NCBI RefSeq assembly: GCF_032118995.1
Contig: NC_092653.1
Coordinates: 24,013,202 to 24,077,201, forward strand
Reading direction: 5' to 3'
DNA length: 64,000 nucleotides
Origin: Asterias amurensis
Taxonomy: Eukaryota; Echinodermata; Asteroidea; Forcipulatida; Asteriidae
Each line of letters opens with the position of its first letter. Position 1 is the first letter of the stretch. The notes below the pieces were generated by a model. That model was not told where the DNA came from and searched no databases. It saw only the letters and a program-made list of their open reading frames with translations. Shown piece after piece: positions 10,681-55,000 of this stretch. A program made the position numbers and the translations under genes.

Positions 10681-11469
10681 TCAAAACTTCAAAGTCCTCT
10701 CTATAACAAAATGATTATGAGCACTTCAAGAGAGTCTGGATAAAGAATGTAACTAACCTCATGTCACCAGGAACCAATCAACTGCCGTCAAGTCCCTTGT
10801 TGTATCTCACTCATTTATGCTTCCTGAGCCACAAGTCGATCACTAGTATACATGTACAACTCCAAAACCAAGCAGCATGCTTAATCGCAGGAAACAGATT
10901 TGTACACATCGCATCACCACCATTCAAGAACTTCATGACTCAGCACCTGCTAAAAAAAGAGAAATCTTCGCACTGACCATTAGACAGTCACCTCCACATA
11001 CTATCTAATGGAAACACCTCCATACAAGATGTGTGACATCTAAGTTTGTCAATCCACCTCAACTAGCATGTTCAAGAAAATGCTGAATCAACTAATTGAT
11101 CACCATTTAAAGAGAATGAGTAAAGAAATACAGAGGCTCTACAACAAATTCGACATCACTCATCGTATAAACCAAAAGGATTGAAGGAATACAGAGATGT
11201 CAGGAAGGCATCACAAAATTAAAGAAGTTTGTCAAAACTTTTGGTCTCACAACAAAAACCTACAACAACAACAACCCTGGACAAAATGTTTTTTAAACAT
11301 TAATAAAATCCACAACACAACAATTTTCAGTGTCTCCTGTCACTGAAATACTTGAGATACAACAAAAGGTCAAATAAATTTTAGAGATGTATTAGTAACA
11401 ATATTAGTAATTAAGCTCCTACAATAACATCTAGTTTAAGCCATTTCCAGTAGAAAATTTACTCTGAGG

Positions 11470-12950
11470 TATATAAACTTTTGGTCCGTCTTCGAGAGCG
11501 GCTAGAGACACTCATCTTACCATTGCAGGCTGGTTTCGGATCCAATCGCAACACTGCTGAACAAATAGCATGTCTTCAAATGGCAATTGATGCGTGCCAC
11601 TCAAGAAAGCCGAGTCTGGTTATAAAAAGCTTTGTCGCCTTCTCCAAAGCATTCGACTGTGTCGACCGCGGGGCTCTGAGACAGATTCTGTCACTTTAAG
11701 GTATACCCACACCTTTCATCAACCAATAATTTCACCGTAAACCAATACATCTGCATGTGAGCGCACATCCGCAGGTTGCACGGACGAGTTTGACACAAAA
11801 TCTAGTGTGCTCCAGAGAGATACGCTGACACCCTACTTGTTTGTCATCGTCATTAACGCGTCATTGACGACATCTTATGCAAGTCGCTCACCCTAGAAGA
11901 TGCTTACACTGTGAGGAGACATGTTTCCGCACAGCGAACGGCCGTGAAAATCCATGCACTTGCCTACGCCGACAATGCTGTGCTATTTTCTGATGACCCA
12001 TCGCCAACTTCATCGCTTTTGAGGCAGCATCAGCCAAAGTAGGTCTGCAAGACGAAGCATGTACATTGGAGACATGGGAGACACTCCACACACTACTATC
12101 TGTACAACAACTGGCGTCCCTCTCGAGCCTGCGACAACTTTTGCAACCTGGGATGCAACATTGCAGATAGCAGAAGTGCCATTCAGTGACAACGGCAGCT
12201 GGCATTGGTCCCAGCACGCAAACTCACACCTGTGTGGGATGGGGTAGCCAGCGATAACACCAAAATGCAGCTCTTTCGGTCCACAGTCGAGGTGAAGCTC
12301 TAGCGATCACTGACACCATTACCAAGAATCTTGATGCTTTTCACTGTACTTTCATGCAGTATTGCCTTGGTATGTACTTTCCAGTACAACTATCCAACAC
12401 ATATTTGTACGCTTGCACATGCGTAGCACCTGCAACAACAATCCTGCTGAGAAGTTGTCTTTGTTTTATTGGCCAAGCTCTGCAAAGACCTGTAGAGGTG
12501 CCTTTCGGTCCCTTCTGACACACAAAACCAACCATCTGAACCCTTTCAACAGGGTGGAAGGCTGCGCTGTACCTACTACATATCGCAGGTTACAGACGAC
12601 CTCAACGCCATCGACATACAACATAATCAGGCTGTTCATGCTGCCCAGGATTGGCCTGGATGGCACAAACGAATTTCTAATATTGCAAAAACCTGTAATC
12701 ATAACGTCTCAAGCCTAGATCGCCCCCAAAAGATGAAAGATGGAGAAAAATCACAACTAAATGGCAAACTTCTCCAGGTTAAAAAAAATGTGGCAGACCT
12801 CCAACAAGATTGAGAGAGATAGTCAGCCTTGTGCAATCAACAATCTGGCAATGACATGCACAGAACAGAAATACTTGGCACAGTTTGGGAGACGCCTTCG
12901 CCCAGCAGTGGGATGACATGGATTAATGATGGTGATGATGATGATGAAAG
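11470..12950 (+). mobile_element. Non-LTR retrotransposon (LINE), decayed reverse-transcriptase region
   Basis: Translation shows reverse-transcriptase hallmarks: LPLQAGFGSNRNTAEQIACL, then a FSKAFDCVDRGALRQIL block (palm motif A), later LAYADNAVLFS (motif C, with the second catalytic aspartate of YADD changed to asparagine). The C-terminal part follows (HNQAVHAAQDWPGWH at about 12620 and the FAQQWDDM-like end at about 12905). A GATGATGATG tail at 12926-12950 is a typical LINE 3' simple repeat. Several frameshifts and stops split the frame, so this copy is dead. Endonuclease and ORF1 are not seen, consistent with 5' truncation. Confidence 0.85.
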
Positions 12951-13600
12951 CTATCTTTGAGGGTACAGGCAAGGATAAAATCTTCACCAAGCAATTCTTC
13001 TCAGGTTTTACTTGTGGGGATACCACCAACTTACCCTTTGAGCTGAAATTGATCCCCAAGAATAAATTCACAGTAACATCGGATGGACTTCTTAAACGCC
13101 TACAATCAGTGAACACCAAGAAAGCAATATGACAAGGGTTTTGATATCAAGATGCATCTTACAAGACCTGACTACTGAAAGTTCACCCTTGATATAAGCT
13201 GCATCTTCCAACAATATCGGACACTGGATGTGTTTCTGTTGCCTGGATAAAATGTCAACATGTCTCCCATTTGTAAGAAAGGAGACAGGTGTACAGCGGC
13301 AAGTGACTACCTGTGACCATCACATCCATCTGCAGTAAAAAACATTGAGCAATGGAACACTTTGATTATCATGAAATAAAAAGGCTCAAGATGATTTCAA
13401 CCACGAACAATCATGTAAAAACACAGCCTGTGATCAAAACTCAAGATCTTGCTAAAGCACTTGCTGATAATCGAGGCAAAGTTGATGTGATAGTGCTCAA
13501 TGTTTTGAAGGCCTTTGATTGTGTCCCTGGCCACCAGCTATTAAAGACAGTTTATCTGTTGAGTAAACCAAAGTATTTTCTGTCAGTGTGAACCTTATTG
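12951..13600 (+). mobile_element. Second LINE reverse-transcriptase fragment (different family)
   Basis: It starts directly after the GATGAT tail of the previous LINE. The translation follows the usual order of the N-terminal RT region: KIFTKQFFSGFTCGDTTNLP, FTVTSDGLLKRLQSVN, NVNMSPICKKGDR, then DLAKALADNRGKVDVIVLN with KAFDCVPGHQLL (motif A). The pieces lie in different frames, with stops between. The block after motif A is lost. The sequence differs from the preceding LINE, so two families abut. Confidence 0.8.
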
Positions 13601-16980: not shown

Positions 16981-17385
16981 GAGCCTGCAGAAAAGATTGG
17001 CGAGCCCAGAGACGGCACGGTAAGGCACTGATGGACGAGCCTGGAGACAGACGGCACAGTGAGGCGCTGATGAATGAGCCCAGAGACAGGACGGCACGGC
17101 GAGCGATCACAGTTGAGTCTTAGACAAGACGGCACGGTGAAGCACTGATGGATGAGCCTGGAGACAGACGGCACAGTGAGGCGCTGATGCATGAGCCCAG
17201 AGACGGGACGGGACGGCGAGGCGCTCACGGTTGAGTCTGAGACAAGATGGCATGGTGAAGCACTGATGGATGAGCCTGGAGACAGACGGCACAGTGAGGC
17301 GCTGATGAATGAGTCCAGAGACAGGAAGGCACGGCGCTCACGGTTGAGCCTGAGACAAGACGGCATGGTGAGGCGCTGATGGGTG
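16981..17385 (+). repeat. GC-rich minisatellite, ~39-bp units in a ~118-bp higher-order repeat
   Basis: GATGAGCCTGGAGACAGACG occurs at 117-118-bp spacing (about 17035, 17152 and 17270). Each 118-bp block consists of three related ~39-bp subunits (GAGCCTGGAGACAGACGG, GAGCCCAGAGACGGGACGG and GAGTCTGAGACAAGACGG types). GC content is far above the surroundings. The long minus-strand open frames here come from the repeat phase and are not taken as genes. Confidence 0.85.
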
Positions 17386-17749: not shown

Positions 17750-18112
17750 GTGAGTTGACCTTGCAGATAAATTTACACAGAAATGATTGAAACATTTTTT
17801 GGGCAACTGTTTTTTTACCTGCATGTCATCTCATTTGTCAAAGACTTTTAAATTACACAAAAACAATTGTACACCTGTTAGGAAGTGAACCAAAAAGCCA
17901 ATTGTGTTGGTTTTTCAATAGAACTCTGTCAGGTTTTGTTTAATAAGTTTTATACAGGCACAGTAAGTTTTCTGCTGTATCATGGCCATGAAAAATGTTT
18001 GCTGCCGTTGTTGTTGGTTGTTTTTTTTTATTCCTTGTTGTTAACTGGACTATTATTATCCAACATTATCAAATCTGGTGTTAAGATATAATTGAAATAT
18101 TTGACATTTCAG

Positions 18113-19393
18113 GAGGACTCTACAACTGAAAACATGAAGGGAAACATGTATGAGAACTAGATGTACATTAACTGCACCTAGCAAGATGAGAAATTTCAGC
18201 TGACACTGTATGAGGTGAGTTCATATATGTAATAGACATGACACTGTTGTTTGTTGTTGTCATTGTCATTGTCATTGTCATTGTCAATGTCGTTGGCATT
18301 GTCGTTGGCGTTGTTGTTGTTAATTGGAGTGTTATTATCTAACATTGTCAAATCTTGTGTTAAAGATATCATTGATATATTTGACATTTCAGGAGGACAC
18401 TTCAACTGAAAACATGACGGGAATTGTGTATGAGAACTAGATAAACATTTACTGCACCTAGCAAGATGAGAAATTTCAGCAGACATAAACACTGAGGTGA
18501 GTTCATATATGTAACTTTCTTAATAGACATGACGCTGTTGTGGCTGTTTTTTGTTGTTGTTGCCATTGTCGTTGCCGTTGTTGATGTCGTTGTCGTTGTC
18601 GTTGGCGTTGGCGTTGGCGTTGTTAATTGGGCTGTTATTATCCAACATTGTCAAATCTGGTGTTAAAGATATCCTTGAAATGTTTGACATTTCAGGAGGA
18701 CACTTCAACTGAAAACATGACGGGAAACATGTATGAGAACTAGATATACATTTACTGCACCTAGCAAGATGAGAAATTTCAGCAGACATAAACACTGAGG
18801 TGAGTTCATATATGTAACTTTCTTAATAGACATGACGCTGTTGCTGTGGCTGTTGTTTGTTGTTGTTGTCATTGTCGTTGTCGTTGTTGATGTCGTTGTC
18901 GTTGGCGTTGGCGTTGTTAATTGGACTGTTATTATCCAACATTGTCAAATCTGGTATTAAAGATATCCTTGAAATATTTGTCATTTCAGGAGGACACTTC
19001 AACTGAAAACATGACGGGAATTGTGTATGAGAACTAGATATACATTTACTGCACCTAGCAAGACGAGAAATTTCAGCAGACATAAACACTGAGGTGAGTT
19101 CATATATGTAACTTTCTTAATAGACATTACGCTGTTGCTGTGGCTGTTGTTTGTTGTTGTTGTTGTTGTCATTGTCGTTGTCGTTGTTGATGTCGTTGTC
19201 GTTGGCGTTGGCGTTGTTAATTGGACTGTTATTATCCAACATTGTCAAATCTGGTGTTAAAGATATCCATGAAATGTTTGACATTTCAGGAGGACACTTC
19301 AACTGAAAACATGACGGGAAACATGTATGAGAACTAGATATACATTTACTGCACCTACCAAGATGAGAAATTTCAGCTGACATAAACACTAAG
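18113..19393 (+). ncRNA. Tandem array of five exon-like blocks with consensus splice sites
   Basis: Five copies of a 102-104-base block at 18113-18214, 18393-18496, 18696-18799, 18990-19093 and 19290-19393. Each is preceded by an acceptor (TTTGACATTTCAG, or TCATTTCAG in the fourth) and followed by GAG or AAG plus GTGAGTTCATA, a near-perfect donor. The intervening ~190-280 bases hold a GTTGTC/GTTGGC simple repeat that differs in length between copies. All forward frames have stops inside each block, so a spliced product would be noncoding. The repeat period is about 280-303 bases. Minus-strand open frames of 88-98 codons repeat with the array. This may be a lncRNA with duplicated exons, or a satellite whose unit happens to hold splice-like sites. 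Confidence 0.5.
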
Positions 19394-20924
19394 GTGAGTT
19401 CATACAATGTGTAACTTTTTTAATAGACATGACAGTGTCATGAAGCCATGAAACTACATGGGTGTGTGACCCTTTAGGGGCAATCCCAGCCATATCTTGT
19501 TGGGCCCCCCTGCCCCCTTTCAATGTTGGTTCTGATTGCACGGTCTTCTGCATTCAAATCAACATTGAGCGGGGGGACTGCGGACGGGGAAGAGATGATT
19601 ATTGTCAGTGGGAAGTGTACATGGAATGGTTTTATGTACTGTTAGGAATGGGTGGCCAAGAATTTTGGCCAGGAATGTAGTTTGGATTTGCAGTTTTCTT
19701 AAACAAGCTTCTTTTTGGTGCTCTCTTAATGTCATTTCTATTTAGAAGATAACCTGACAAGGACGGTGAAAACAATAACACTGTCTCGGTGTGATTTGTA
19801 CAACTCCTACATAAATGAATTGTAACATTGTGTTCTGGGAAACTTAAAAAGTCCAGATATCCAATTTCAAATGGAGGGAACTTAGGGGCACCAGCTCCCC
19901 CCCAGCTCTAAGTTCTGTTCCTGTGGTGCCATGTCTCTATAGGGGTTTGTCAAATAACATGCAAGAATTTAACTGAAAATAATAGTTTGTCAACCGTGAA
20001 ATGCTTGCATGAAATCCGAACAACTGCATTTTATTGTAGTATAAGGCTCAACAGATTCACACGATAAAAAGTTGACAGTTGTTTGTATTGTGTTTCCATA
20101 CAGATAGAGGACTACATGTCGATCATCGATATGACTCATTTGAAATAAGGGCCTCAAGAGTGACACCACAAAGCTATGAAGCAAGCAAAGACAAGGAGAC
20201 CTGAACACCACGAACACCATCAAACCATGCAAGCAAAGACAATACAGAAAAAGGAACAACTAGACATCAACGAAAAAAACTGTTTGTACTGAACAACTTT
20301 ATCAAGGGTTATCAACTGTGATCATAGCCAACTTCTTTCGGACAATCGCAATTTAATGATAATGGTTAAACCTATACAACCTGAATCAACTCGTCAGCTC
20401 AATGCTATAAGGCCATTTAACTGCAATTTCAAACTGGTAATGATAAAAAGGTTTTTAAATGAAAACAAATCAACACATTTGAAAGAAATTAATCAAAATC
20501 AATAAATAAATGTTTTACTTAGAAAATGGTTGTTCTTTTAGCAAAAAAAAGGACTTTGAAGACTAATTTGATCAACTAACTCTATTATAACCAGAAGCTC
20601 CAAAATATAGAGGGGTATATTATCAAACCCATACAATTTGCACTAATGACCTTATAGTTCTGAGCAGACGAGCTGTGGTTGATTCGTTGGACGTGTCGTT
20701 TCATTCAATCGAGGCATCGCGACACTGACCGATAGCTGCAAGACCGACAGCTGCAATCAAGTACAAGAACTGAAAGTGAGAACTTACAGAAATGAACTCT
20801 ATACTTGTACATATTCTACAGTTTCTATGTAGTGTAGTTTAATTTATACCTAAAGTTTATACTTTAGCTCACAATTGTTTCAGTATATGAGGGTATAAGT
20901 ACAAAAGGACCATAAAACAAGCTA
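19394..20924. other. Noncoding sequence between arrays
   Basis: No gene or classified repeat is seen. An acceptor-like TTTCCATACAG ends at 20102, similar to those at 16940 and 17600, and could belong to the same hypothetical transcript. Confidence 0.4.
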
Positions 20925-21175: not shown

Positions 21176-22330
21176 CACGGGGAGGCTTCGAGAAATCAGC
21201 CATCCTCAAACACTCACACATTACAGACCACCAAGGTGACTGGGAAGCAGCAGAAATCAACACTCCTATCAAGGCATGGCACCCGAGTTGTATCAGAGTC
21301 GCCATCGAGATCCACAAACACGACACCGAACCTCAAGGCGAAAGCTTCCATATCAGTGACATCTCTACACCTTCTCCCGACCAATGGATCTCCTATATCC
21401 ACGGTCACTCCTTATAGGTACCCCCCTCCCTTTAGTCTCCTCCTGTCACCCATTATTTAGACTGCTTTGGGTCGTCTATACCCTCAGTCCCCTAGGCGTC
21501 GTACTTCAAGATTCAGCTTCAACATCAGTGACATCTCTACACCTTCTCCCGACCAATGGATCTCCTATATCCACGGTCACTCCTTATAGGTACCCCCTCC
21601 CTTTAGTCTCCTCCTGTCACCCATTATTAAGACTGCTTTGGGTCGTCTATACCCTCAGTCCCCTAGGCGTTGTACTTCAAGATTCAGCTTCAACATCAGT
21701 GACATCTCTACACCGACTCCCGACCAATGGATCTCCTATATCCACGGTCACTCCCTAGGTACCCCTCCCTCCCTTTAGCCTCCTCCTGTCACCCACCATT
21801 TAGACTGCTTTGGGTCGTCTATACCCTCAGTCCTCTATACTAGGCTTCGTACTTCAAGGCGTCAGCTTCCACATCAGTGACATCTCTACCCCTTCTCCCG
21901 ACCAATGGATCTCCTATATCCACGGTCACTCCCTAGGTACCCCCTCCCTTTAGTCTCCTCCTGTCACCCACCATTTAGACTGATTTGGGTCATCTATACC
22001 CTCAGTCCCCCTAGGCCCCACACCCTCACTGACCCCTGTGCAGGTTCCTACTGACACAGTTCATCAGTGAGTACACACTCCACACACACAACTCCCAGGA
22101 TCCTGAGTAGGATCCAGTTGTCCTGCATCACCGAGCTCCATATCCCGCCTTGGTGCAACACCACGCTTATCCGCATCGTCAGTACTTAGCAGCATGCAGC
22201 ATCAGAGTGCAGCTTTCTCCAAAAGACATTGAGAGCATACTGATCGAAACATCGAGTTGAAACCAGCAACGGCTCTTTTCAGAACCACCCCAACTCGTTT
22301 ACATGGTGTTTTACCACAAACCTTACCAAA
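21176..22330 (+). mobile_element. Penelope-like element, 3' end with tandem terminal repeats
   Basis: From 21184 one frame reads through the typical Penelope C-terminus: GFEKSAILKHSHITDHQGDW, then INTPIKAWHPSCIRVAIEIH, then GESFHISDISTPSPDQW. The last piece is then repeated in tandem (see next entry). The 3' flank ends near CATGGTGTTTTACCACAAACC at 22301-22321, a motif that recurs in the window. Reverse transcriptase and GIY-YIG catalytic parts are missing, so this is a 5'-truncated dead copy. Confidence 0.75.
21352..22015 (+). repeat. 172-178-bp tandem array derived from the Penelope 3' end
   Basis: ATCAGTGACATCTCTACACC starts at 21352, 21524, 21695 and 21873 (third base block slightly varied in later units). 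Units differ by a few bases, so the array is fairly young. Each unit starts with the Penelope C-terminal codons and continues into the 3' noncoding part (CCTTTAGTCTCCTCCTGTCA, TTTGGGTCGTCTATACCCTC). Terminal tandem copies are a known habit of Penelope elements. Confidence 0.8.
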
Positions 22331-22539
22331 TGTATATAATATGAGGGTAGTTAAAATCTTAAAATGCTAGGAGTTGTGCCCCTGCTCTGCAAGTTCTTAA
22401 ATCAGAAACATAAAAAAGTAGCTTTATGAAAGGTGTACTTTTGTAGAGGGTGTTATTTAGATTGAATTACGTACATAATGTGTACCATACTTCAGTGTTT
22501 GAAACTGTTACTGTGTGTACAAACACTCAATGTTATAAG

Positions 22540-24860
22540 CCAGATGCTGAGGATCTTGGCTGAGGGTGATGTGCTGGCAACCTCTCCCCTCTTAAACTTG
22601 AAATTTGAAACATTTAGGGCCTAAGGTATTGTTCATCTTTGTTTTATTCTTTTGGGAAACATTTTTTTATTTGATATTTGCATGTACCCAGGGTTTGATA
22701 TTATTTAGTAAAAGCCAGATGCTGAGGATCTTGGCTGAGGGTGATGTGCTGGTAACCTCTCCCCTCTCAAACTTCAATTGAGAAACATTTAAGGGGATAC
22801 TTGTCTTTGTCTTATAATCGTCTTTGGACAAATGTTTTTGGGTTTTTTTCTAATGTGAAAACCAAGATGTTTGTATACAACTCTAGGCCAAGCCAGATGC
22901 TGAGGATCTTGGCTGAGGGTGAAGTGCTGGAAACCTCTCCCCTCTGAAACATAAATTTTGAAATGATGAAAGGGAATGAATGGTAATATTTATCCTAACA
23001 TTCTTTGGGCAACATTTCTTGGTACAAATCATTGTAGAAGCCCAGAGTTTGATTTCAAACTCGAGGCGCAGCCAGATGCTGAGGATCTTGGCTGAGGGTG
23101 AAGTGCTGGCAACCTGTCCCCTCTTAAACTTGAAATGTGATACATTTAAGGGAATGTTATCTGTGTTCTATTTCTCTGGGATACTTTTTGTAGAAATCTT
23201 TGCCAGTATAACCCAGACTTTGATATAAACTCTAGGTCAAGCCAGATGCTAAGGATCTTGGCAGAAGGTGGTATGCTGGTAACCTCTCCCCTCTTAAACA
23301 TAAATTAACTGAATCATTAAAGGACATGAATGCCCTATACATGTTTCTTTGGGGGAACTTTTCTTTTGTAGAGATCATTGTAAAACCCAAAAGTTTGATT
23401 TCAAACTGTAGATCAAGCCAGATGCTGAGGATCTTGGCTGAGGGTGATGTGCTGGTAACCTCTCCCCTCGGTGTCCAAATGACACCCATGAATTAAAAGC
23501 TGATTTAAATTATTATATATGTTATAGTTATAAATGATGTTTACAAGTTTTAAAGGTAGCCTGCACAAGTTATACACAGCTTTTTAATAAGCAAGTGCAT
23601 CTATGAGCATTGAACAATGGTTCAACAAAAAAGACTCTTCATTATGCATGTTCATCATTTTCAGCTTTAATCAAGTTTACAAAGTTATTGACCTACCTAC
23701 ACCAGTTGCTGAATTTGCTGGTTGAGGGTGAAGTGCTGGTAACCTCTCCCCTCCCTAATTTGAAAATGATCTGAAATAAAAAATCAACAAATTAAAATCT
23801 TCCATTTTGCTTGCCTTTGATTGTATGTAGATTTCATAAATTGCTGTAAAGTTAAAACAAGTTGTGATTTGGCCAATTAAGAGTGAGTGTTTGTAACATA
23901 ATCCCATTGAAATAAGATGCTCTACTGCATTATTCATACTGAAATAAAGTTAAATTGCATATTCTTGGGATTTTTATTTAAAATTAACAGTTGCCGAGTT
24001 TACTTTTTAAGGATGGGGGTAACCTCTTCCCTGAGTAATCGTCTCTATAATAACGATGCTTATATTGAACTTTAAAATCATTTCTTCAATATTTCTAAAT
24101 ACACCAGTTGCTGAATTTGCTGGTTGAGGGTGAAGTGCTGGTAACCTCTCCCCTCCAAAATGGTGTCCCACATTTAGCATACTCTAAATTAAAACAATTA
24201 ATAAGTTGCTCTCTGAACAACAAAGGAGCACAGCTAACAAATAATGAGCAAGTTCATGTTCTAACTTTTTAAAGACCTTTCTATATACCAGTTGCTGAAT
24301 TTGCTGGTTGAGGGTGAAGTGCTGGTAACCTCTCCCCTCCAAAATGGTGTCCCACATTTAGCATACTCTAAAGTAACAAATAAATAAGTTGCTCTCTGAA
24401 CAACAAAGGAGCACAGCTAACAAATAATGAGCAAGTTCACGTTCTACCTTTTTAAAGACCTATCATTATACCAGTTGCTGAATTTGCTGGTTGAGGGTGA
24501 AGTGCTGGTAACCTCTCCCCTCCAAAATGGTGTCCCACATTTAGCATACTATTAAGTAACAATAAATAAGTTGCTCTCTGAACAACAAAGGAGTACAGCT
24601 AACAAATATTGAGCAAGTTCATGTTCTACCTTTTAAAAGACCTATCTCTACACCAGTTGCTGAATTTGCTGGTTGAGGGTGAAGTGCTGGTAACCTCTCC
24701 CCTCCAAAGAAAATGGTAACTCTCTTGTGATGAACACCATGCTGAAATAAAAAAGAGCGAAATGTCACTTTCATCAATTTTGTTCACCCTGGTATTCTAG
24801 TCATTGCTTTGGTATACAAACCAGTTGCTGAATTTGCAAAGTACTGGTAACATCTCCGCA
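22540..24860 (+). repeat. Tandem array with a strongly conserved 52-nt core (13 copies)
   Basis: Cores at 22540, 22715, 22893, 23072, 23242, 23418, 23702, 23987 (decayed), 24104, 24288, 24471, 24653 and 24821 (decayed). The first six are type A (start CCAGATGCTGAGGATCTTGG), the rest type B (start CCAGTTGCTGAATTTGCTGG). Both end in GTGCTGGTAACCTCTCCCCTC (21st base split here from the motif GTGCTGG plus TAACCTCTCCCCTC). Spacing is about 170-184 bases, except 284 and 285 around copies 7-8. In type A copies the ~126-base flanks have drifted widely while the cores stay nearly identical. Type B copies 9-11 share flanks too and are recent duplicates. This points to selection on the core. It could be a structured RNA, a short peptide exon or a binding site; no family is recognised. 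Confidence 0.75.
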
Positions 24861-25377
24861 AATATCCATCTTTCGCTAATCGCATATGGTTAAAGTTTAG
24901 ACAAAATTGCCTAAAAATAAGTGTGTTTGTATTTATGCATGTATGGTATTGATATTACTTTTACAAAATAAAGTGTTTACATGATTGTTCATTTTACTAC
25001 ATGAATTTTGTTTCTCAAACTGGATTTGATACGAAGTGTAATAAAAAGTGGTTGGTTACATATTGTCTGGCAATAGAGGGCACTGTTTGTTCAATCTGAG
25101 TTTTTTTGCTAAAGAGAGCATAAACATTATATGGGTTTTTGAAGTTGAAACCAACTGAAACTTACACAAATTTTGGCAACCCAGTTTAATTTTCTTCAAA
25201 TTAATGAGAGAAAGTTGGGTACAACTTAGTAAATCACTTTTTCTTTTATTTACCAACGCTACTCAAAAGCAATTTACACATGGTGGTACCGCAAAACGCA
25301 CCTGATGAACTGTTAGACTGAGAGATTATAGTGATAATTCTATTTAAGTTTAATTTTGTCTGTAAATTGGCAAAGGT
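24861..25377. other. Noncoding, AT-rich
   Basis: No gene. A short CATGGTGGTACCGCAAAAC motif lies at 25278-25296, related to the dispersed motif at 8685. Confidence 0.4.
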
Positions 25378-25671
25378 CATAGAGTTATACATTAGAACTA
25401 GAGGGCGCACTGGCCTATATACGCAACCCCGCATGCGCGCAGGCGGCCATTTTCCAAGTTGACAAAACATGCATCGCATAGCATGTGTTTGTGCGGCAAT
25501 TTTGTAAGATGACAAAACAGCATCGCATCAGCGTTAAATAAACACAAACTCCAACGTGTACTTCATATTCAACGCGCGTACAGAATGGCGCGCGGTTCTC
25601 CTTGCGGTCTCGTCGCGTTTGTGCAAGAAGCTTCACCATTGCGCCCTCTAGTTCTTATATATAACTCTATG
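25378..25671. mobile_element. 294-bp hAT-like MITE with GAGTTATATATAAGAACTA termini, copy 1
   Basis: About 32-bp inverted termini (CATAGAGTTATA ... AGAACTAGAGGGCGCA at the left, mirrored at the right) and a perfect 8-bp target duplication GCAAAGGT at 25370-25377 and 25672-25679. It carries two AATGGCCGC- or CGGCCATT-like blocks and a GC-rich centre. A second copy in the opposite internal orientation is at 31468-31762. It has no coding capacity. Confidence 0.9.
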
Positions 25672-27299: not shown

Positions 27300-28830
27300 A
27301 TACGAATGCGATTAAAATGCCGCCCTCTGTTAGTGACTTTACATGAAAAATGCAGTTCCAGTTAGAATTGGCAATTTTAAGCTATGCATGCGCTATATAA
27401 TGCGATTTTTTAAAGTGCTGTTAATATTTAAAGCAGTTTTGCGAATGCGCACAAAATGCTGCCCTCTATCAGTAAATTTTGAATGTTTTTGCAATTATAT
27501 ATAAAATTACCGATTTTCATTGTAAGCTTTGTAGACACTTTATCTTGCGTTTTGGAGTGGTGTGTTACATTAAAAGCAATTTTCGCATGCGTATAAAATG
27601 CTGCCCTCTATCGGTAAATTTTAAATGTTTTTGCAATAACATTCAACTTTGCAACTTTTTTACTCTAAGCTCTGCTGCTGCTTTATCATGCGGCTTTTTA
27701 AGTGTTGTTTTAGATTGTAAACAATTTTGCGCATGCGTATAAAATTCTGTCCTCTATCGGTACATTTTAAATGTTTCTGCAATAAGATTCAACTTCGCAA
27801 CTTTTTTACTCTAAGCTATGCTACTGCTGTATAATGCGATTTTTTAGAGTGCTGTTAATATTTAAAGCAGTTTTGCGAATGCGCACAAATGCTGCCCTCT
27901 ATCAGTAAATTTTGAATGTTTTTGCAATTATATATTAAATTACCGATTTTCATTGTAAGCTTTGTAGACACTTTATCTTGCGACTTTTGGAGCGGTTACA
28001 TTAAAAGCAATTTTCGCATGTGTATAAAATGCTGCCCTCTATCGGTAAATTTTAAACGTTTTAATACTCTAAGCTATGCTGCTGCTTTATTATGCGGCTT
28101 TTTAAGTATTGTTTTAGATTGTTAAAAATTTTGCACATGCGTATAAAATGCTGCCCTCTATCGGTAAACTTTAAATGTTTTTGCAATAACATTCAAATTT
28201 GCATTTTTGTTCTAAGCTGTGCTACTGCTTTATCAGGTGATTTTTTAAGTGTCGTTTTAGATTGTAAACGATTTCGTGCATGCGTACAAAATGCTGCCCT
28301 CTATCAGTAAATGGTTCAATATTATGTTTTGCAATTATATATAACTTTGCCACTTGTTCAAGAAGAAGCAGACGCTTCATCATGCGACTTTTGGAGTGGT
28401 GCGCATACGTATAAAATGCTGCCCTCTATTGGTGAGTTTTTAATGTCCCTGCAATAACATTTAAACTTGCCATTTTTGTAATTGTAAAGCTATGGATATC
28501 ATGCGATTTTTTGAGTGGTGTTTTAAGCAGTTTTGCAGGTGCGTACAAAATACTGCCCTCTCTTGGTAATTTTTTGTTTACTTATTGCATTTAGATAAAT
28601 TTGCTATTTTTTTTGTAAGCTATGCAAATGCTTTGGCATGCGATTTTTTTAAGTGGTGTTAAATTGCACGCATGTGCGAATATGCTACCCTCTTCTGGCA
28701 AAACTAATTGTTTTTGCAATTGAATTAGAATTTTTAAATTTTCTATTTTAAACTAAGCAAATGCTTTCATGCAATTTTAGAGTATTTATTTTGCGATGCG
28801 TTTCATACAAAACGCCCTCTTTTGGTTTTA
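27300..28830 (+). repeat. ~137-bp satellite array, about 12 units
   Basis: The block GCTGCCCTCTATC (or close variants) occurs near 27321, 27461, 27603, 27749, 27894, 28034, 28153, 28296, 28421, 28554, 28687 and 28813, a period of 119-146 bases. Inner units are the most alike and the two ends are decayed, as expected under unequal exchange. Many units hold GCGCATGCGTATAAAATGC, an NRF1-site-like palindrome beside a TATA-like string. Plus-strand open frames inside (for example from 27479) result from the repeat phase. Confidence 0.85.
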
Positions 28831-31467: not shown

Positions 31468-31762
31468 CATTGAGTTATATATAAGAACTATAGGGCGCAC
31501 TGGTGATGCTTCTTGCACAAACGTGACGGGACCACAAGTAGACACGCGCGCACCATTCTGTACACGTGTTGTATATGAAACACATCTTGGAGTTTGTGTT
31601 TATTGAACGCTATGCGAAGCTTATTTGTCAACTTACAAAATGGCCGCACAAACACACGCTGTGCGATGCCTGTTTTGTCAACTTAGAAAATGGCCGCCTG
31701 CGCGCATGCCGGGTCGCGTATATAGGCCACTGCGCCCTCTAGTTCTTATATATAACTCTGTG
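31468..31762. mobile_element. 295-bp hAT-like MITE with GAGTTATATATAAGAACTA termini, copy 2
   Basis: Same family as 25378-25671, internally in the opposite orientation. Inverted termini CATTGAGTTATATATAAGAA and TTCTTATATATAACTCTGTG. It is flanked by GTGCACGC (31460-31467) and GTGCACAC (31763-31770), an 8-bp duplication with one change. Confidence 0.85.
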
Positions 31763-43500: not shown

Positions 43501-45168
43501 TTCAAAAGTTTGCATTTTTGAAACAAAAAATATTTGTCATCATGACGTCATAGCTTGTTATCAAGACATTGAGATAAAGTTTTTTCAAGGTCATTAAACA
43601 ATTTTGAGCTTGCATTATAATACTTCGAAGTGACATGCTTTATATATACTATATATATATACTAGTGAAAGCTGCTGTTTAGGCTTATAAAAATAACAAA
43701 ATGTCTTAGTTTTAAGAGTATTTAATACCAAACGTATGCCTACCCTTTTAGGTATCTCTTTTGTATACTAAAACATAGGTAGGCCTAACTTCCCCTGCAC
43801 CCCTATAATGTTTCGACACAGCCCTACGTTCCGCTCACATAATATACACTGTAAACAAATTGGGTAAAAAAATGCCCAACTTTTTACCCAATTAAGGGCG
43901 AATAGTGAACTCCTCCAACTTTTGGGCAAAATATTACCCATCAAAGTTAGGCACTCTGATTGCCAAATAATTGGGTAATATTTCCTCATCAATAGTTGGG
44001 TATATTTTGGTAACCAACAGTTGCGTAATTTTTTGTTTACCCATTTTCTGGGTATTTAATAAATTATCAGTAACTCACTTATTGGGCGATGATTTTATTA
44101 ATGATTTAACCCTTTTCGGTGTTATCCAACAAATGGTGAATGTATTTAACCCTTTGATTTACAGTTTCTTCTGTGATACGTCATACAACCAGGCGTAGAA
44201 AATATCTTTTCCACGATGGCAAACGGTGGTGAGCTGTGACCTTCCAAGGCCTTGTCATCTCTCTCAAAATCGAGAGGGTGCTCAGTGGTTTGTAGATGCT
44301 TTGGAAGGTTAGTTTTCAACTAAAATAAATACAGTTTGTTTCCTGTTCAGTTGTTGTACACAGTCGTGACAGTTGCACATAATGGCATGATAAAACTGAA
44401 ACTAAAAACTGAAACTAATTCAACAGTAGTGTCACATTGTTGCTCCCTCTGCAACTGTCACGACTATGTACGACTGAATAGAAAACACAACTTCATATTT
44501 AGTTAAAAACTAACCTTTAAATTTGATCTATATCTACTGGGAAAACCCCGCTCATCACAGCCACTCCTCCACTCGCCATGTTGGAAAATATCGTTATGTT
44601 TTTTCATACCTTGCCCAACTTTTGGGCAACTCTTTGATCGTAGTGCGCATGATCGGATGATTTTGACCAATTAATGTGCATCATTTTAACCAACAATCGA
44701 AATTAACTAAAATTACCAAAAAAAGTTGCTCCAATAAATACGCAAAAGTGTAACCAAAAGTTATGATAAATTCAGATTACGAATTATTTGCCAAACACTT
44801 GCCCAAATTTTGTTCCGCTTTTTAAACACAAATTTGGCAAACAAAATGTTTGTCCAACACCAATTATTGGTTTTGTTGGGCAATTAATTGTTGAAGTTAC
44901 TTTGCCCAACAAATGATTTGACCAACGTTTTTGCAGTGTACCCTCACGCTAATAGGGTTAGAGTTAAGGTTAAGTTGGGGTTAGGCATTAGGGGTGTCAG
45001 ATCAGAACATAGGTGTGTAACCCATAAAAGTCTCCCCCATATTACTGTGAAGTTCACATTACCGATTGAAGCCTCAAACTGTTTAGGAAAACAGCAGCCC
45101 TGTTGGTTGGTTGGTGCTGATGCAGTTACCGCCACAAGGACGAACACACAAACTGTAGAGAAGTACAT
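40303..45168 (-). CDS. Ependymin-related secreted protein, paralogue A (six exons)
   Basis: Secreted glycoprotein of the ependymin-related family, extracellular or lysosomal, with a fold that binds hydrophobic ligands and calcium in known members. Exons on the minus strand: 45168-45063, 42877-42717, 42374-42299, 41466-41290, 40834-40740 and 40392-40303; all borders are GT-AG and phases run 1-0-1-1-0. The product has 234 residues: signal peptide MYFSTVCVFVLVAVTASA, then QGCCFPKQFEAS, IIDYKE, CTKS, GNVSFSVTHDGCIPVG, GYLNYTQGIADPGKWF and ICTK. Six cysteines match paralogue B; sites NVS and NYT can be glycosylated. The start follows a TATA box (45300-45293) by about 125 bases. Intron 1 holds two MITEs and intron 3 a SINE. 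The partner at 47449-50707 is transcribed away from it. Physiological role not known from sequence. Confidence 0.93.
41490..41770 (-). mobile_element. SINE with GGGACGTAAAGCCGTTGG body, copy 2
   Basis: Reverse copy of the SINE at 35485-35760, in intron 3 of ependymin-related gene A. Minus strand: GGTGGGACGTAAAGCCGTTG, GGGGTTCGCCCCGTTG and TGGCTGTGGCTGCTGAATGC. The 3' end is GCGCTATATAAGACTTCAAT with an ATTATTATTATC tail, the diagnostic end of this family. Confidence 0.75.
43017..43256. mobile_element. 240-bp GGGCCCAATTTCATGG palindromic MITE
   Basis: Perfectly mirrored ends: GGGCCCAATTTCATGG at the left and CCATGAAATTGGGCCC at the right. Internal blocks GCTTACGTGCAAGCGCCGAA and TACGCTTGACGTAAGCAC match the truncated copy at 9329-9543. 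It lies in intron 1 of ependymin-related gene A. Confidence 0.85.
43847..44938. mobile_element. 1.09-kb foldback DNA transposon with CACTG termini
   Basis: Left end CACTGTAAACAAATTGGGTA, right end mirrored as CACTGCAAAAACGTTGG, with TA on both outer sides (43845-43846 and 44939-44940). Long inner arms also mirror each other, for example ACAGTCGTGACAGTTGC against GCAACTGTCACGACTATG, and GTTAGTTTTCAACTAAA against TTAGTTAAAAACTAAC. TTGGGCAA/TTGCCCAA motifs are repeated throughout. No transposase frame is visible. It occupies much of intron 1 of ependymin-related gene A. Confidence 0.75.
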
Positions 45169-45292
45169 CTTCAGGTTTATAACAATTCTTGACAGGACTT
45201 GATACTGTATGGTAGGCCTACCTCAAAAATGTCAATGGTTTGGTTCAAGTGTGTCAAAGTGTTATGGTATAGTGCGTGGACAGAGCAGCCGG

Positions 45293-45300
45293 TTTTATAT
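45293..45300 (-). promoter_or_regulatory. TATA box of ependymin-related gene A
   Basis: On the minus strand ATATAAAA (within CATATAAAACC), about 125 bases before the start codon; a start site near 45265 would be expected. Supported by position only. Confidence 0.6.
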
Positions 45301-45860
45301 GCGTTCATCAAAGCATGCAGTGCAGGCGCCTGAATTTAAATTATTGTTTTCATTTTATTGATACAAGGCCACAGCCTCGTACCCGGAACCTCTCCACCCA
45401 AAGCATGCACAGATTATTTAAACGCATTGACTACGTATGAGATCGAGGTTTGCATTGTACGTGTACAATTATATCACTCCCCTTTATTGTACAATGACGT
45501 CACCACTTAGTAATAACTATTTATAGCAAGCGTGTGCAGCAGTCTCGTGACTGACCTAGATCACGTAAAAATCACGGGGGGTATTATAGGCATCAGAATT
45601 TACAAGTTAATCTAACTTTTCTATATAGGCTAACAATTTAAACATAAATTCAGTTAAACCAACAAGAGTAGCCCTTTTTATTTATTTTTTTGTCGGCTAG
45701 TTCAAAATAATGAAGCACTTTGTCAATAAACGTTGCGCCGTTTCTCTTCAATATTAATATGATGCAATAATAGTTTGGAGCACAATATTGGACAAGATGT
45801 TTTCCTTATCCGTATAGTAATACTGCATGATAGGGTTTTACACAAAAATGACCCAATTGA

Positions 45861-46168
45861 CAATGGCACTGGACACGGTTGGTTTGTGAAAATGTTGGCT
45901 CAAATGGCCCTCGATTTTGCATAAGAATAATAAGAGAAGAAAAAAACACTAATGTTGTATATTTTGTGTGCTTTCAGATGCATAATAAAAGGCTTCAGTT
46001 GAAGTCTTTTATTATTTGAGCGAGAAACTACCTCCTCCTTGGTGTCGTCTCATTATAGAATTAAACTGTTTTTCATGCGGATGAGCAAAACGAAGGAGCA
46101 TGAAAGTATGTTTTTATGCTTGTAATTATTTTGAGCAATAACCAATAGGCCTATAGTGTCCAGTGCCT
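45861..46168. mobile_element. TTAA-family MITE, copy 4
   Basis: Ends TGGCACTGGACACGG and AGTGTCCAGTGCCT; TTAA is present on the right (46169-46172) but decayed on the left. Internal CTACCTCCTCCTTGG and TAATTATTTTGAGCAATAA blocks belong to the family. Confidence 0.65.
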
Positions 46169-46886
46169 TTAATGTTAAGGATGTGTGGTTTTAACCAATT
46201 GGGTTAATTTGGGTTAATCCATAACCGACTGAAACAGTTGTTGACAGGGACACTGTTCAAACTTCCACACAATGGAGGTCCAATGGTCAAAATGGTAAAC
46301 GAACCTTATAAACTGATCTCAAACAGAAACTTGTTTTGATCGACTTGAGCGTCGTTTTCATGTTTGCTTAAAACCAATAATCGGTGATTCGTCATCGGGA
46401 TTGATAATGGCATTAGAATGGCGTCGTTTGAGCAAACATGCTGAATATACAAATTAATATAAGTTGGGATTATAAAAAAAAAAATAATAATAATAATAAT
46501 AACACAAATTTTAATGTATAAATTCTGACGAAGGTCCGGTTTGGATCGAAAGCAATTAGGCCATCTCCTCTAATAATAATTTTAAATTAAAATACATATA
46601 CAACATGCCTGATGTTGTGGCACAGGATGGGTATGTACACACATTCATACCGGGTAACAAAAGAGGAAAATAGGGTCCACGTTCGGGAAAGAGGTCCACA
46701 GTTGGAAAACGTGTACAAAACCAACGGGAGCTGTTGTCAAATATACAAACGAGGGACAATAGGAGGTCCACTGCAGGCGTTTAGTTTGTGTGTGTGCGTG
46801 CCCCCGCCCCCTCCCCCTCCCCACAATGTCCCACTACTGTAACACTCTCTTTTCCTTGGTACAGATAGAAGTAGTCTACTCCATCA

Positions 46887-47046
46887 GGGGTCGATTTCAC
46901 AAAGAGTTAGGACTAGTCCCAACTTAGGACTAGTCCCAACTTAGGACTAGTCCTTATAGAGATATCATAAACGTACAGCTAGTCCTAAGTTAGGACGAGT
47001 AAGTCGAGATAAGACTAGTCCTAACTCTTTGTGAAATCCACCACAG
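46887..47046. mobile_element. Palindromic MITE with GGGGTCGATTTCACA termini, copy 2
   Basis: GGGGTCGATTTCACAAAGAG at the left, ACTCTTTGTGAAATCCACC at the right, with three TTAGGACTAGTCC blocks on the left half. Relative of 35957-36115. Confidence 0.75.
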
Positions 47047-47379
47047 GTCCTCTAAACACTGTATACGATTCCCAGAGCAATGTGAATACACAATACCGGT
47101 TGGGGGGGGGGGGGGGTTACATCATGCCACGTGTCCAGCGCCAACTTTCAAAACAAACAATGAATCAATAAGTTCAAGAGGTGTGTGATGACATCATGTT
47201 TAAATTTAACTTGTACAGCGCCTTGGGGTTAGCATTTTGTATGTGTAAAGACTTAGTTAAAGCATGTTAAAGTGCTCAGACCTTGTGAACTTTTGTTGAT
47301 TTTGAGTCATGCGCCGTTTGTTCTTTCAGTGTTATCACTACTACAGCACTGACTACAGCACTGACTATAGTGACGAACA

Positions 47380-47388
47380 CTTAAATAG
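47380..47388 (+). promoter_or_regulatory. TATA-like box of ependymin-related gene B
   Basis: CTTAAATAG lies 61-69 bases before the start codon of gene B. Just upstream, GACTACAGCACT is repeated (47340-47370). Supported by position only. Confidence 0.5.
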
Positions 47389-47448
47389 AGAGAGCGGGCT
47401 CATACGGTACTGACTTATTTCGAAGTTTTCAGCTTTTTGGTGGACAAA

Positions 47449-50400
47449 ATGAAGGTGTTCTTGGTATGTGCGTTTGTTATTTCAGTAGTTGGTGTAGTCA
47501 CGTCAGCACCACCAAGCAAGGCTAAGTTTTGCTGTTTCCCCGATCAATATGAAGCATCAATGGGTAAGAGTAGTGCATCAATGTTTCCTATACCTCCGTT
47601 GTAGTGTGATATAGACATTGAATTACGTATGTCTACAGTGCTAAATCGATATACATGTACGTGCTGTTGGCATGCATGCAGTGAATGTATTAGTTTCACT
47701 AATGGACATTTGACATGTCTCATCATGAGACATTGCTGCACGGACGTACCAACTGAAATGGCCTAATGTAAATTACATGGTCCAATATGTCAAACATCCA
47801 TGCAGTATCCGCCTCCATGATGTAGTTTAATATTGGACATTAGGAGTTCGGTACAGCGAATGTCTGCAATGCTAATGATGCTGTTGGTAGGCCTATACAA
47901 TGAGTGTCTTCTTTTCATGAATATTGGACAATGGACACATATTGCTGTAGTCCATCGGCTCATGGAGGAATCCTCCATGATCGGCTGTACAAACCTACTA
48001 CATGTATATTATGTGAATGACAATGTCCGATATGTCCAATATGTAAAACTAGTTTGATATTGAACATTCACGTACAGTGAATGTCCACTTTGCTATTTCG
48101 ATTTTTGACATACAACCGGTTCATTTCAGATGCAACACTGTATAGCTCACAGGAGATTTTATCACGGTGCTACCGCAAACCCCACATACTCCTATAGACT
48201 TGATTCAAGTCCCGTTCTCGTGTGCGAGAGGTCCCTTAGCATATCGTGCCGTAAAGCAGTGCGCCCTCGCCGTCAAAATGTAACGCAGAGCATCACAAAA
48301 CAATAGTTTTCTGGCGATGGCACGGGATTGGGACTTGAGTCAAGTCTAACCTACTCCATCCACGCAGTTTCAGGCCGAGAGGGCGTGCTTATTACTATTA
48401 TTCATGGTTGTCTTTTCAGGCGAAGTTGATGGCTATGCTCTACCGAATGGGAAAGGAGGAGTTGCAAACAGCTTCTCAAAAATCGCTGTAGATTCTCAAA
48501 ATGGACTGGCTGCTACCGAATTGACACAGATCTACAACGGCACAACGACCAAGTTGAAGATCATCATAAACTACAAGGAGGTAATGTTTTTGTTTTGCTA
48601 TACAGGCAGTTTGATGTTTTTTATCAGTTTGAAAAAGAGTCACCTAATAATTGAACTTCAGGGTCATAGGTGACCTGAAACCAAATCGGATCCGGAGCAA
48701 AATTTACCAAGATACACGTCTCGTAGGTCTGACCCATTCCTAAGTAAGCTTGACCCGGAATCTGTGTCAAAATTACCCATAAACGAGTCAAACTGACCCG
48801 GAGCAGTAGTATTTCAATAGACAAACAAATGAACGCCATGTGTACGATTGTTCATTTCAGAAAGTGGATTACGTCATCGTTGGAGAAACATGCACAAAGG
48901 CTGTTATGAATGAGCCACAGTTTAGATGTGTTCCGGGTAAGTGGTAATAATGGAAAACTTCTGAACGCTAAGTGGCAGCAGACTTACCACGGAAATTTCC
49001 ATTGTTTACGGTAACATCTGTACATTATCGAGAACCATTGATTTACCAAACTGAGTTATTAGTGCCGGATAGACTAAGGCTCGTTTGTGTATGAGTCCAT
49101 AGGAAATTTATTTGAGACAGCGGACCAGTCTATGTTGTAAAAAAAAGCGGTTAAACGACCTTGAATTAGGTTTACCAAGCGTTTTCTCCTATAGTAGGAG
49201 TAATGGAAATGGGACTTACTTAAAAATGAATAAACAGAGATATATTTGCCAGTTGCTAGCTGGTATAACGTACCAGAGCTTTAGAACAAAAGTACGACCA
49301 TAGGGCTTTTATTAAAATTGCCATGTAGCATAGTATAACTAAAAAGTAATTCTAACAACTATATTTTCTTCATTTGGTTTAGACAATGCTCAAGATGGAG
49401 GGACTTTTTACTTTGGTGATAAGGGGTTGGATGTAAACGTTTACACTTTCCCACTCAATCAGAAGGGACTATTTGAAGGCAACGTATCATTGACTGTTAC
49501 CCGTGACAATTGCATCCCAGTCGGCACAACTTCGATTGGGCGGTCTTTGGATTCAACACTAGCACCATGTGAGTAACAGTAAAGAAGGTTTGTTATTTTA
49601 TGCATAATTATGTTTATGCAAAGTGGTCTTTGACAATTACCAAAGGGGTCAGTGCCTTTAACTAAAGGAACCGTTTAGTAATCGAGTAAATGGCCCAAAA
49701 TACCCTTACTGAGACTTTACATTACTTAATTATTGGACAACAAAATGAAGTCTGACCTGGGATAGGTTGAGGATTGCCAGAAAACCAAAAAGTTACCAAA
49801 AATATTCATCATCAAACAGTCGTCAGAAAACAATGAATTGTTCTTCTCTTTTTTACAACAGCCCTGCCAGTGATGAAGACTTCTGGTTTCGTCAACTTCG
49901 TGATCGGAGTCAAAGATCCCGATCATTGGTTCAAACTTCCATCCTTCTGCCCTAAAGTAAGTAAATGTCACCGTGGTCAGACTGATGGACCTGCAATCAC
50001 AACGCTGTGGGTTCGAATCCCCAAGCTAACCATTGACTTCACAATGACTAGAACAAGTTTTGTCATAATCAGTTGTGCAATTTATAAGCAAAGACAACAA
50101 TTAAACCAATGTTGCGAGAGATTTGCTGTTGCCAGCTTGGTGTTTATATCCCCTTGTTTGAACTTTGCCGAGTACCCTTCCTTGCCGGGAAGATCATCTA
50201 AACGACTACAACATCAAACGTGCCATGAATTTCTTAAATTTCATGATGTGAATGGATTGTAGTAAACAAAAACCTTGACTCTGTAAAGTGCTTTATGTAA
50301 CACTGAAGTAGATTAATGTTACGTGCTATCTGATGACTTTATCAGGTGATACGAGAAACTCATCATGCAAATCAGTCCATGGCCTACGTCATAAACCATA

Positions 50401-52037: not shown

Positions 52038-55000
52038 CTACTCAAGCCTCTCCATTTGTCTACACGTGGCGATCAGTTCAAACGGTTCCGGTGCCAAAGT
52101 AATCCCCATTCGTCCCTTGAGAGATGGCTCTGGCGCCCCCAACGGCAGAGTGAAATTAAATTGATGAAGAAGGTGGGTGAAAAACAAGAATACTTCCATG
52201 CTGGCCAGTCGCTCGCCTGGGCACATACGACGACCTATAAAGAGTATATCGAATGTCGGTTACTTCTAGAACAATATAAGTGATAGACTGGTTCCAGATC
52301 CCAAGTCATAGATATATGATTTGGGACCTAGAACCTATGGTCATGAGACCTGGGATCTACAGGCCCGCGAACTCTGCGACAATGAATGTCAACTTTGTTT
52401 ACACTTATGGTAAACATTTCTTTCAAATTAATATAACAAGTTTAAGCCCAATGTAGACATGCCCGAAAAGCGATGCGTGAAATTCAACAAAATCAAACGG
52501 CGATTTTATTTTCAATTTACCCATTCTTACTCGATGCATTTTTGCTTTAGCAAACCTTTACAATATGATATCCCAGTTGTAACAACATTTTATTCATAAA
52601 AAGTTCAACAGTAAAGTGCTGTCAGAGGACTTCTTTGCAAGTCTATTTATGAATTTTAGAAATCAGGTTTAGTTAAAGGGGCACCCACCTGTTCCGTAAG
52701 GCAGAAAATGTTCATGTTTGCGGTATTGCCCTCTCTCGTCCAAGAAACGCTCCGGTCTAAATTGGTCTGGCTCCGGCCATGTCTTGGCGTTGTGCATGAC
52801 GGCCCACATGACTGGCATGACCGTGGTGCCCTTCGGTATATCGTAGCCGTATAGTTTGGTGTCCTCTGTGGTTGCCCGGGGCACGGCTATAGGGTAAGAT
52901 GGCAAACGTATATGGTTAAATTAAACATCTATCGGTAGGCTAAGTGTATTACATTATGGTAGGCAATTTTATACATCAGAAAAGATACAATATATCTGAT
53001 TAATAGAAGTGTGTTTTAAAGAGTTGACTTACTTATTGCGGCAATGTAGCGTATTCTCTGAATCTCACTTATAACGGCCCTCGTGTAGTTCAACCGGGGT
53101 CGCTCCTCCATTGACGGCATACGGGCACGCCCAACCACCTCATCCAGCTCCTCCTGTACCCGGCACTGCACACCAGGATGCGCGATCATATAAAGCAGTG
53201 CCCATCTCAAAGTTAGGGCGGTGGTCTCCGTGCCTACTGCAAACAGATCAGCGATGACCCAGGTCAAGTTATCCTCTGTAAACGGTGACGTCTGCCCGTC
53301 GCTACTGCGTCTGCGTATCTCATTTAAATACGCGTCGATGAAGTCCCGGATGTTGTTCTTATTGAACGTCCCCAGGTGCTCGCGTACGGACTTTGTAACC
53401 AGACTGGATATAAGTTCCTGGAGGTTGGAACGGAATTTCCTAAACCCACTCAGCGGAACGTACTTTAAGAACGGGAAGAAGTTGACCAGTCCGGCCATTC
53501 CGGCCAGCTCGAAATTCTCCTGGAGTAGAGCGAGCATCCGTTTGAACCGGATACTATCGTACTCATACCGGGTTCCGTATACGATCGAGCAGACGATGTT
53601 AGACACCGCGGTGTTGAGGGAGTGGTTGGGATCCAACGGAACCGTCGGATTCGCCTTCAGCCGGTCACAGAGATAACAGATCTCGGTGGTGATATTTACC
53701 GCGAAGTTGTCCTTTCCAAGCCCCAGGCCACGGAGCGCGTTAAACGTCCATGCCCGCTGCTCCTTCCAGTGTTTGCCATAGAACGCTCCGGCAATACCTA
53801 TTTGGGAGAAATAGAGTCAATACAATAACCTTTGGTCAAAAAGTAACACAATAGATTTTAGTTTATGATGCAAGTTCATTTTGGCATTAGAAAGATATCT
53901 GATTTGAAGGTCTGACGTGATCAGGGGCGTATAACCAGCTACATTCTTATTTTGGGGCAAGATTTACAATACGTAATCCCCCTCTGTTTTATAAACGCTA
54001 CTGTCAGCCAGACGTAGCTCTATGGGGGATACCCTTGAGCCAAAACGGAATTTGATTTTACTTTATATTTACTCGAACTTAAACTGATGGTAATAGTGTC
54101 CTACCCTAAACCAAGTAGACCTTACATGATTTTTCCAGAATATAGTAATTATAGGCAGTGTATGCCGACCATGCCTCCGCATATAGAGTCAAGTATTTAC
54201 ACACACACTATACGATCTACATATTGACTGTGCGATGTGTAGAATAATTGATATGAGAGCTAGAAGTATAGGCTCGAGTGGGGGTCAACCAAGTTCAAGG
54301 ATAAAGAGCACTGCCCCGAATGGGACTCAAAGAACCGACGGTCTGCCTTTTTTATAGCCGCAATAAATTTTCGTGTGAATATTTACAACTGTAACGGTGG
54401 CGGTCCATAATTACATGTAATAAATTCTCGCTGTGTGTTAATCTGACCCTAGTGGTGTACCATTAAACCGCAAACGAACCACACACAGACACAAAGTCCA
54501 AGGTTAGAATTTACCTTGTTTTAGGGTCCTTAAATAGGGCATGCACATTTCCGGTTTAAAATAACCCGAAACTTAATCAAAAATATGTTACTGACCCGGG
54601 TTTAGACCCGACTCAGATATGGGTAAAATGTCTGTTTCATTTCTGACCCGTTTGGGGTCAACATGATACAGAACTCGAAAAACATACACCTTACTGACCC
54701 TGTCTCCAAGGTTGACCCGGAAGACCCGAGTCAGATATGAACAGACCCTACCCTGTATGATATTGTGATCCGTTTCTGGATCAAAATTACCCGGCAATTG
54801 AATGAAACAATTCCTTTAACTGGCCCAGGTTTCCGGTCATGTTAAACCAAATGACCCCTAGCAGACAAGGACATTCTCTGCATCACTTCTGACTGAGGTC
54901 AACTTGACCAGGGATTCAAACAAAAAAACACCTTACTGACCCGGGTTTCCGGTCATGTTGACCCGGAATATCTGACTCAGATATAGGTATGGACATTACA

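Follow-up and report, generated by a model that had tools for sequence, protein, structure and literature searches.

Irregular variability along the monomer, with conserved segments, is described as common in satellite DNA, the CENP-B box being the only such conserved box to which a 2013 paper gives an assigned function (PMC3694981). One of these boxes, the CENP-B box-like Box 1 of Meloidogyne, is a 17 bp segment found in several satellites, which has stayed conserved while the rest of the non-coding monomer diverged; as an explanation that paper proposes that the box is selectively constrained and takes part in rearrangement (PMC3694981). For the frog satellite PcP190, thought to derive from 5S rDNA, non-random variation along the monomer is reported and recombination is weighed against selection, the choice between them being left open (PMC4201667). 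Both relic motifs and functional constraint are likewise named in a review on repeats (PMC5615363).

The locus described here lies in a 64-kb stretch of Asterias amurensis DNA (the window) and looks like a further case of this known pattern of conserved boxes in tandem repeats, with a long box. It resembles Box 1 in that a short segment is conserved within otherwise diverged non-coding units, and PcP190 in its non-random variation, the likeness to CENP-B box-like satellites being one of conservation pattern. It differs from Box 1 in that the conserved segment is 54 bp long and is found in one array, in 11 intact copies, and from PcP190 in that its core belongs to no Rfam family at the gathering score. 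Outside satellites, the Xist A-repeat also carries short conserved cores and variable spacers in tandem; its cores are shorter and its RNA has been demonstrated, whereas the present array is known from DNA alone.

The array spans 22538-24857 and contains 11 intact 54-nt cores, six of type A and five of type B, which align gap-free and with no indels, plus two decayed cores, all on the plus strand. The type A block comprises A1 (22538..22591), A2 (22713..22766), A3 (22891..22944) and A4 (23070..23123), each located by profile match and alignment, followed by A5 (23240..23293), the furthest diverged of the intact A cores, located by profile match, identity and alignment, and A6 (23416..23469), located by profile match and flank comparison, the 3' flank of which has no clear match among the A flanks (z <=2.8). 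Of type B, B1 (23700..23753) was placed by alignment and flank comparison, and B2 (24102..24155), B3 (24286..24339), B4 (24469..24522) and B5 (24651..24704) by profile match and alignment. The decayed cores are Bd (23988..24032; nhmmer E 0.01, below the inclusion threshold) and Be (24820..24857; E 0.00036), from which 11 nt are missing. An earlier note on this DNA had counted 13 copies of a 52-nt core; 11 are found intact and two only in decayed form, and the conservation is real but extends over 54 nt, the 52 nt first described being positions 3-54.

Intact cores start 175, 178, 179, 170, 176, 284, 402, 184, 183 and 182 bp apart, and eight of these ten distances fall between 170 and 184 bp, near the nucleosome repeat length. 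Spacers measure 116-125 nt among the A copies (about 126 in the earlier note), 128-130 nt from B2 to B5, and 230 and 348 nt on the two sides of B1. The G+C content of the intact copies is 52-59% in the core against 26-36% in the flanks. Such head-to-tail non-coding units of similar length are satellite-like, and 'satellite' is a loose label for an array that has a length of just 2.3 kb and occurs once within the searched sequence. Directly 3' of core A6, at 23470-23486, lies a perfect hairpin (GGTGTC-CAAAT-GACACC), which is absent after the other A cores.

The contrast between core and spacer was measured on units A1-A5; A6, which has no following A unit and a different 3' flank, and the B copies were excluded from the identity and rate tests. 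Mean identity is 0.93 in the core and 0.60 outside it, and a partitioned likelihood fit, which presumes a tree-like history, gives relative speeds of 0.183 for the core and 1.329 for the flank, a ratio of 0.14, i.e. about seven times fewer per-site differences between copies in the box than in the spacers. A model with equal rates loses 30 log units (likelihood ratio test 60.5, p about 7e-15), and for a 54-column block that slides along the unit alignment the mean divergence is 0.07 when it covers the core and climbs to 0.49 midway through the spacer. One segment is hence far less variable than the remainder, as in the satellites mentioned above, and the claim that the A cores are nearly unchanged while the DNA between them has drifted is borne out, the equal rates that would have spoken against it not being found. 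Given this contrast in identity and rate, homogenisation that treats core and spacer alike is insufficient as an explanation.

Uneven conservation is common in this window. The four other arrays scanned each show it more weakly, with identities in their best 54 columns versus the rest of 0.97/0.73 (array at 21343), 0.96/0.82 (18037), 0.89/0.68 (27378) and 0.98/0.76 (17010), compared with 0.93/0.52 for five units of the core array in the same type of scan, where gaps are scored as mismatches; the control arrays contributed 3 or 4 units each (four copies at 27378, where more exist), and the choice of a best window inflates all of these values. The core array is the strongest of the five.

The consensuses of the two types agree at 44 of 54 positions and differ at 10, as the earlier note had it, nine of the differences being fixed (positions 1, 2, 7, 14, 15, 16, 18, 19 and 23). 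All nine fall within the left 24 nt, so that the right 30 nt have no fixed difference, whereas the sites that vary within type A number two on the left and six on the right; the Fisher p of 0.002 for this comparison is too small, because five of the nine differences, at 14-19, may be a single event, and the 24/30 split was picked after viewing the data. The pattern of a type-specific left and a common right part of the core is a lead only.

Flanks were compared for 60 nt to either side of the core, with z scored against shuffles and Bd and Be excluded. Between types, where each of the six A copies was set against each of the five B copies, 59 of 60 comparisons lie at shuffle level (z <=1.9), the exception being one 5' pair with z 3.0. 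Within type A many pairs are clearly related, with z up to 13.2, but not every pair is: A2-A3 on the 5' side and A5-A6 on the 3' side are at chance (z -1.2 in both), and similarity is low on the 5' side of A1 and the 3' side of A6, where the block ends and nothing else would be expected. Since some A-A flanks are themselves at chance, the lack of similarity between A and B flanks is a less clear sign of age than it otherwise might be. B2-B4, whose 3' flanks are 93-97% identical over 60 nt, are recent whole-unit duplicates and consequently offer little independent evidence, so that it is the A copies, and the comparison of B1 with the other copies, that carry the weight.

Several cores are identical (A2 = A6; B1 = B2 = B5), and B3 and B4 deviate only at position 1. 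The core of B1 is thus the same as those of B2 and B5 while its flanks score z -0.2 to 2.1 against those of B2-B5 (eight comparisons), and A2 and A6 share a core with 3' flanks at chance (z 0.5) and 5' flanks weakly similar (z 3.3). Among A1-A5, moreover, core and flank differences are uncorrelated (rho -0.39, p 0.26, ten pairs, not significant). The identity of B1 with B2 and B5 despite near-chance flanks and this lack of correlation both fit homogenisation limited to the core, and the array might on these grounds have no function at all, recombination being confined by the drifted spacers to the still-similar core and merely keeping it uniform. We consider this functionless account unlikely. 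Conversion within a type leaves divergence between types at the neutral rate, yet the A and B cores agree at 44/54 positions with flanks at chance, an objection that is limited in that exchange between A and B of the right half alone could explain the 0/30 fixed differences there; furthermore, two copies have decayed next to perfect ones.

Our preferred reading, tentative at a probability of about 0.4, is that the tandem array is old, short and non-coding and that constraint, probably together with core-limited homogenisation, has preserved a 54-bp DNA box in it. A small satellite-like array would have retained the box alone while its spacers drifted, and the box itself, with a putatively type-specific left half and common right half repeated near nucleosome spacing, may be a composite protein-binding site or a phasing signal that acts as DNA. 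As the spacers drifted, recombination or conversion between copies would have become confined to the box and added to its uniformity. What speaks for this reading is the 93% core against 60% flank identity, the rate ratio, the agreement of the A and B consensuses beside flanks at chance, the G+C contrast, the regular spacing of 8 of 10 intervals and the two decayed copies beside perfect ones. The missing coding signal, the missing match to an RNA family, the mostly ordinary fold energies and the uneven conservation of other arrays in the window and of satellite monomers agree with it too. Constraint is needed in it, since conversion that acts inside each type leaves the pace at which the two types diverge unchanged, an argument that A/B exchange in the right half would weaken. 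Against the reading stands that a 54-bp island of homology is short for ordinary gene conversion, and a single genome gives no means of telling constraint from conversion. Should selection act on the box, the intact, variant and decayed copies in one array would separate required from tolerated positions and would help to explain how tandem repeats come to have conserved boxes; if there is only core-limited homogenisation, the array would be a caution against equating conservation with function.

That the cores occur in several unrelated flanks would also be expected of a mobile element part or a dispersed repeat family, of which a conserved domain had become arrayed at this locus. A MITE-like inverted repeat does lie nearby, at 25378-25671, where 36-nt inverted repeats with AGAGGGCGCACTGG ends stand 222 nt apart, and a second place, 31490-31740, has 14-nt ends like these, likewise inverted and 223 nt apart; the two are probably copies of one MITE. 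The idea that the array itself sits inside a MITE or DNA transposon was discarded, as none of the 13 inverted pairs of at least 14 nt in 22000-25400 brackets the array with terminal inverted repeats. Nor is there another significant copy of the core in the 64-kb window, where the best further match to an nhmmer profile built from the 11 intact cores is no better than E 2.9, and we regard an origin of this kind as quite improbable.

The earlier note had offered two explanations for the core, a structured RNA or a short peptide exon, and both a DNA site and core-confined homogenisation, which lie outside these options, suit the data at least as well. As to peptides, a tandem set of short coding exons would be in keeping with the plus-strand frame starting CAG, which is open in 11/11 cores, except that two minus-strand frames are equally open in all 11 and the third is interrupted by a stop in A5. 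In none of the 11 cores is the border directly preceded by AG or directly followed by GT (A6 has a GT one base later), the codon differences of five cores from A2 in the CAG frame are 4 synonymous and 14 non-synonymous, with no synonymous excess, and eight of the ten spacings between intact cores are not multiples of three. Stop-to-stop open reading frames listed across the array reach at most 94 codons, and the longest (minus strand, 22886-23167) gave no Pfam match at E 0.01. With neither the splice sites nor the synonymous bias of an exon cassette, the cores appear unlikely on sequence grounds to have a coding role, and we rate the peptide-exon explanation as extremely improbable.

The case for RNA starts from the fold of the alignment, in which two adjacent hairpins are formed by columns 2-6/19-23 and 25-29/50-54. 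Bd and Be entered the first alignment and folds and were excluded from the 11-row core alignments and from the z-scores. Of 70 cells 98.6% pair, and the paired change that the earlier note described between the types (GCCA/TGGC to ACCA/TGGT) is real, G2-C23 becoming A2-T23, with pair 6-19 changing from G-U to G-C. Of the nine fixed A/B differences, two make up the compensated pair and one (position 19) leaves the pair with 6 intact; loop 1 holds a further five, and the last falls outside. These features would suit a cluster of small structured RNA genes, two adjacent hairpins with type-specific loops, and in fission yeast, as cited in the review on repeats, most siRNAs originate where the repeats are best conserved (PMC5615363).

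Chance, on the other hand, often gives one compensated pair. Among column shuffles 21/500 reach the observed pairing and 248/500 have as many pairs with both partners changed as observed, and when ten differences are placed at random 38% of 3000 trials produce a compensated pair within a helix four or more pairs long, or 21% of 3000 when they are confined to the first 25 positions. The earlier note was right, then, that a single covarying pair proves nothing. A site with two-fold symmetry for a protein fits as well, since an inverted repeat bound by a dimer expects a matched change as much as an RNA stem does, and the lone pair therefore cannot decide between them.

Fold energies, scored against dinucleotide shuffles with B1 and B3 as the type B cores of the main set and B2 treated separately, are mostly ordinary, the exception being type B on the minus strand. 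Plus-strand z-scores run from -1.4 to +0.6; on the minus strand A1-A4 and A6 give -0.7 to -1.7 and A5 +0.77, while B1 gives -2.5, B3 -3.0 and B2 -2.7 (1/200 shuffles as good). Among 250 background windows of like G+C, folded on the plus strand only, 8.8% fall below -1.7 and 2.8% below -2.7. Energy would thus favour the minus strand for such RNA genes, and there the change of A5 in helix 2, which breaks a pair on the plus strand, remains G-U; the minus strand, however, loses 6-19 from its kept pairs, leaving four and not five.

No curated RNA family accounts for the cores. Rfam at the gathering score returned 0 matches on either strand of the whole window, its three sub-threshold matches in 22400-25000 all lie in spacers, one touching the last base of A6, and a tRNA scan in its bacterial setting returned 0. 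U7-like and other Sm-type RNAs, spliced leader RNA, snoRNA boxes, SRP RNA, and hammerhead and other ribozymes were dropped as candidates after inspection by eye for their typical features and the Rfam scans. The structured RNA first proposed therefore keeps its fold and one compensated pair, with little support above chance, and RNA genes at this locus seem possible but doubtful. That the cores represent a new class of small animal RNA, of about 54 nt, in which a common hairpin is joined to a hairpin with an interchangeable A/B specificity loop, we hold to be very unlikely.

As expected for animal DNA, the core had no match in virus, prokaryote genome, phage and plasmid collections, an absence that carries little meaning; two weak plasmid matches (E 0.06) are located in spacers and were set aside. 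In the full text of papers, strings taken from the core and its translations, and from three further repeats in the window, gave no relevant match; the two papers returned have titles on lipid transport and salmon lice and were discounted.

The surroundings contain further tandem repeats. A second array at 27443-28430 has seven matches to GCATGCGNANAAAATGCTGCCCTCTATC with at most 3 mismatches (0 expected), 119-146 bp apart except for one gap of 285, which contains a further copy with a one-base deletion; its block resembles what we take to be NRF1-like and CTCF-like sites. Arrays also lie just upstream of the cores at 17010-17382 (118 bp units), 18037-19433 (303) and 21343-22016 (171), and with these three further arrays the region from 17 to 28 kb is array-rich. 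Short open reading frames at 11454-13588 look like non-LTR reverse transcriptase fragments, the only one of these tested (11454-11696) having no Pfam match, and those at 44947-49952 look to us like ependymin-related secreted proteins, with Pfam matches at E 0.01 in 0/3 tested. Elsewhere the window contains a rhodopsin-type receptor open reading frame at 164-1366 and a CYP2-like P450 exon encoded by the minus strand (53019-53816).
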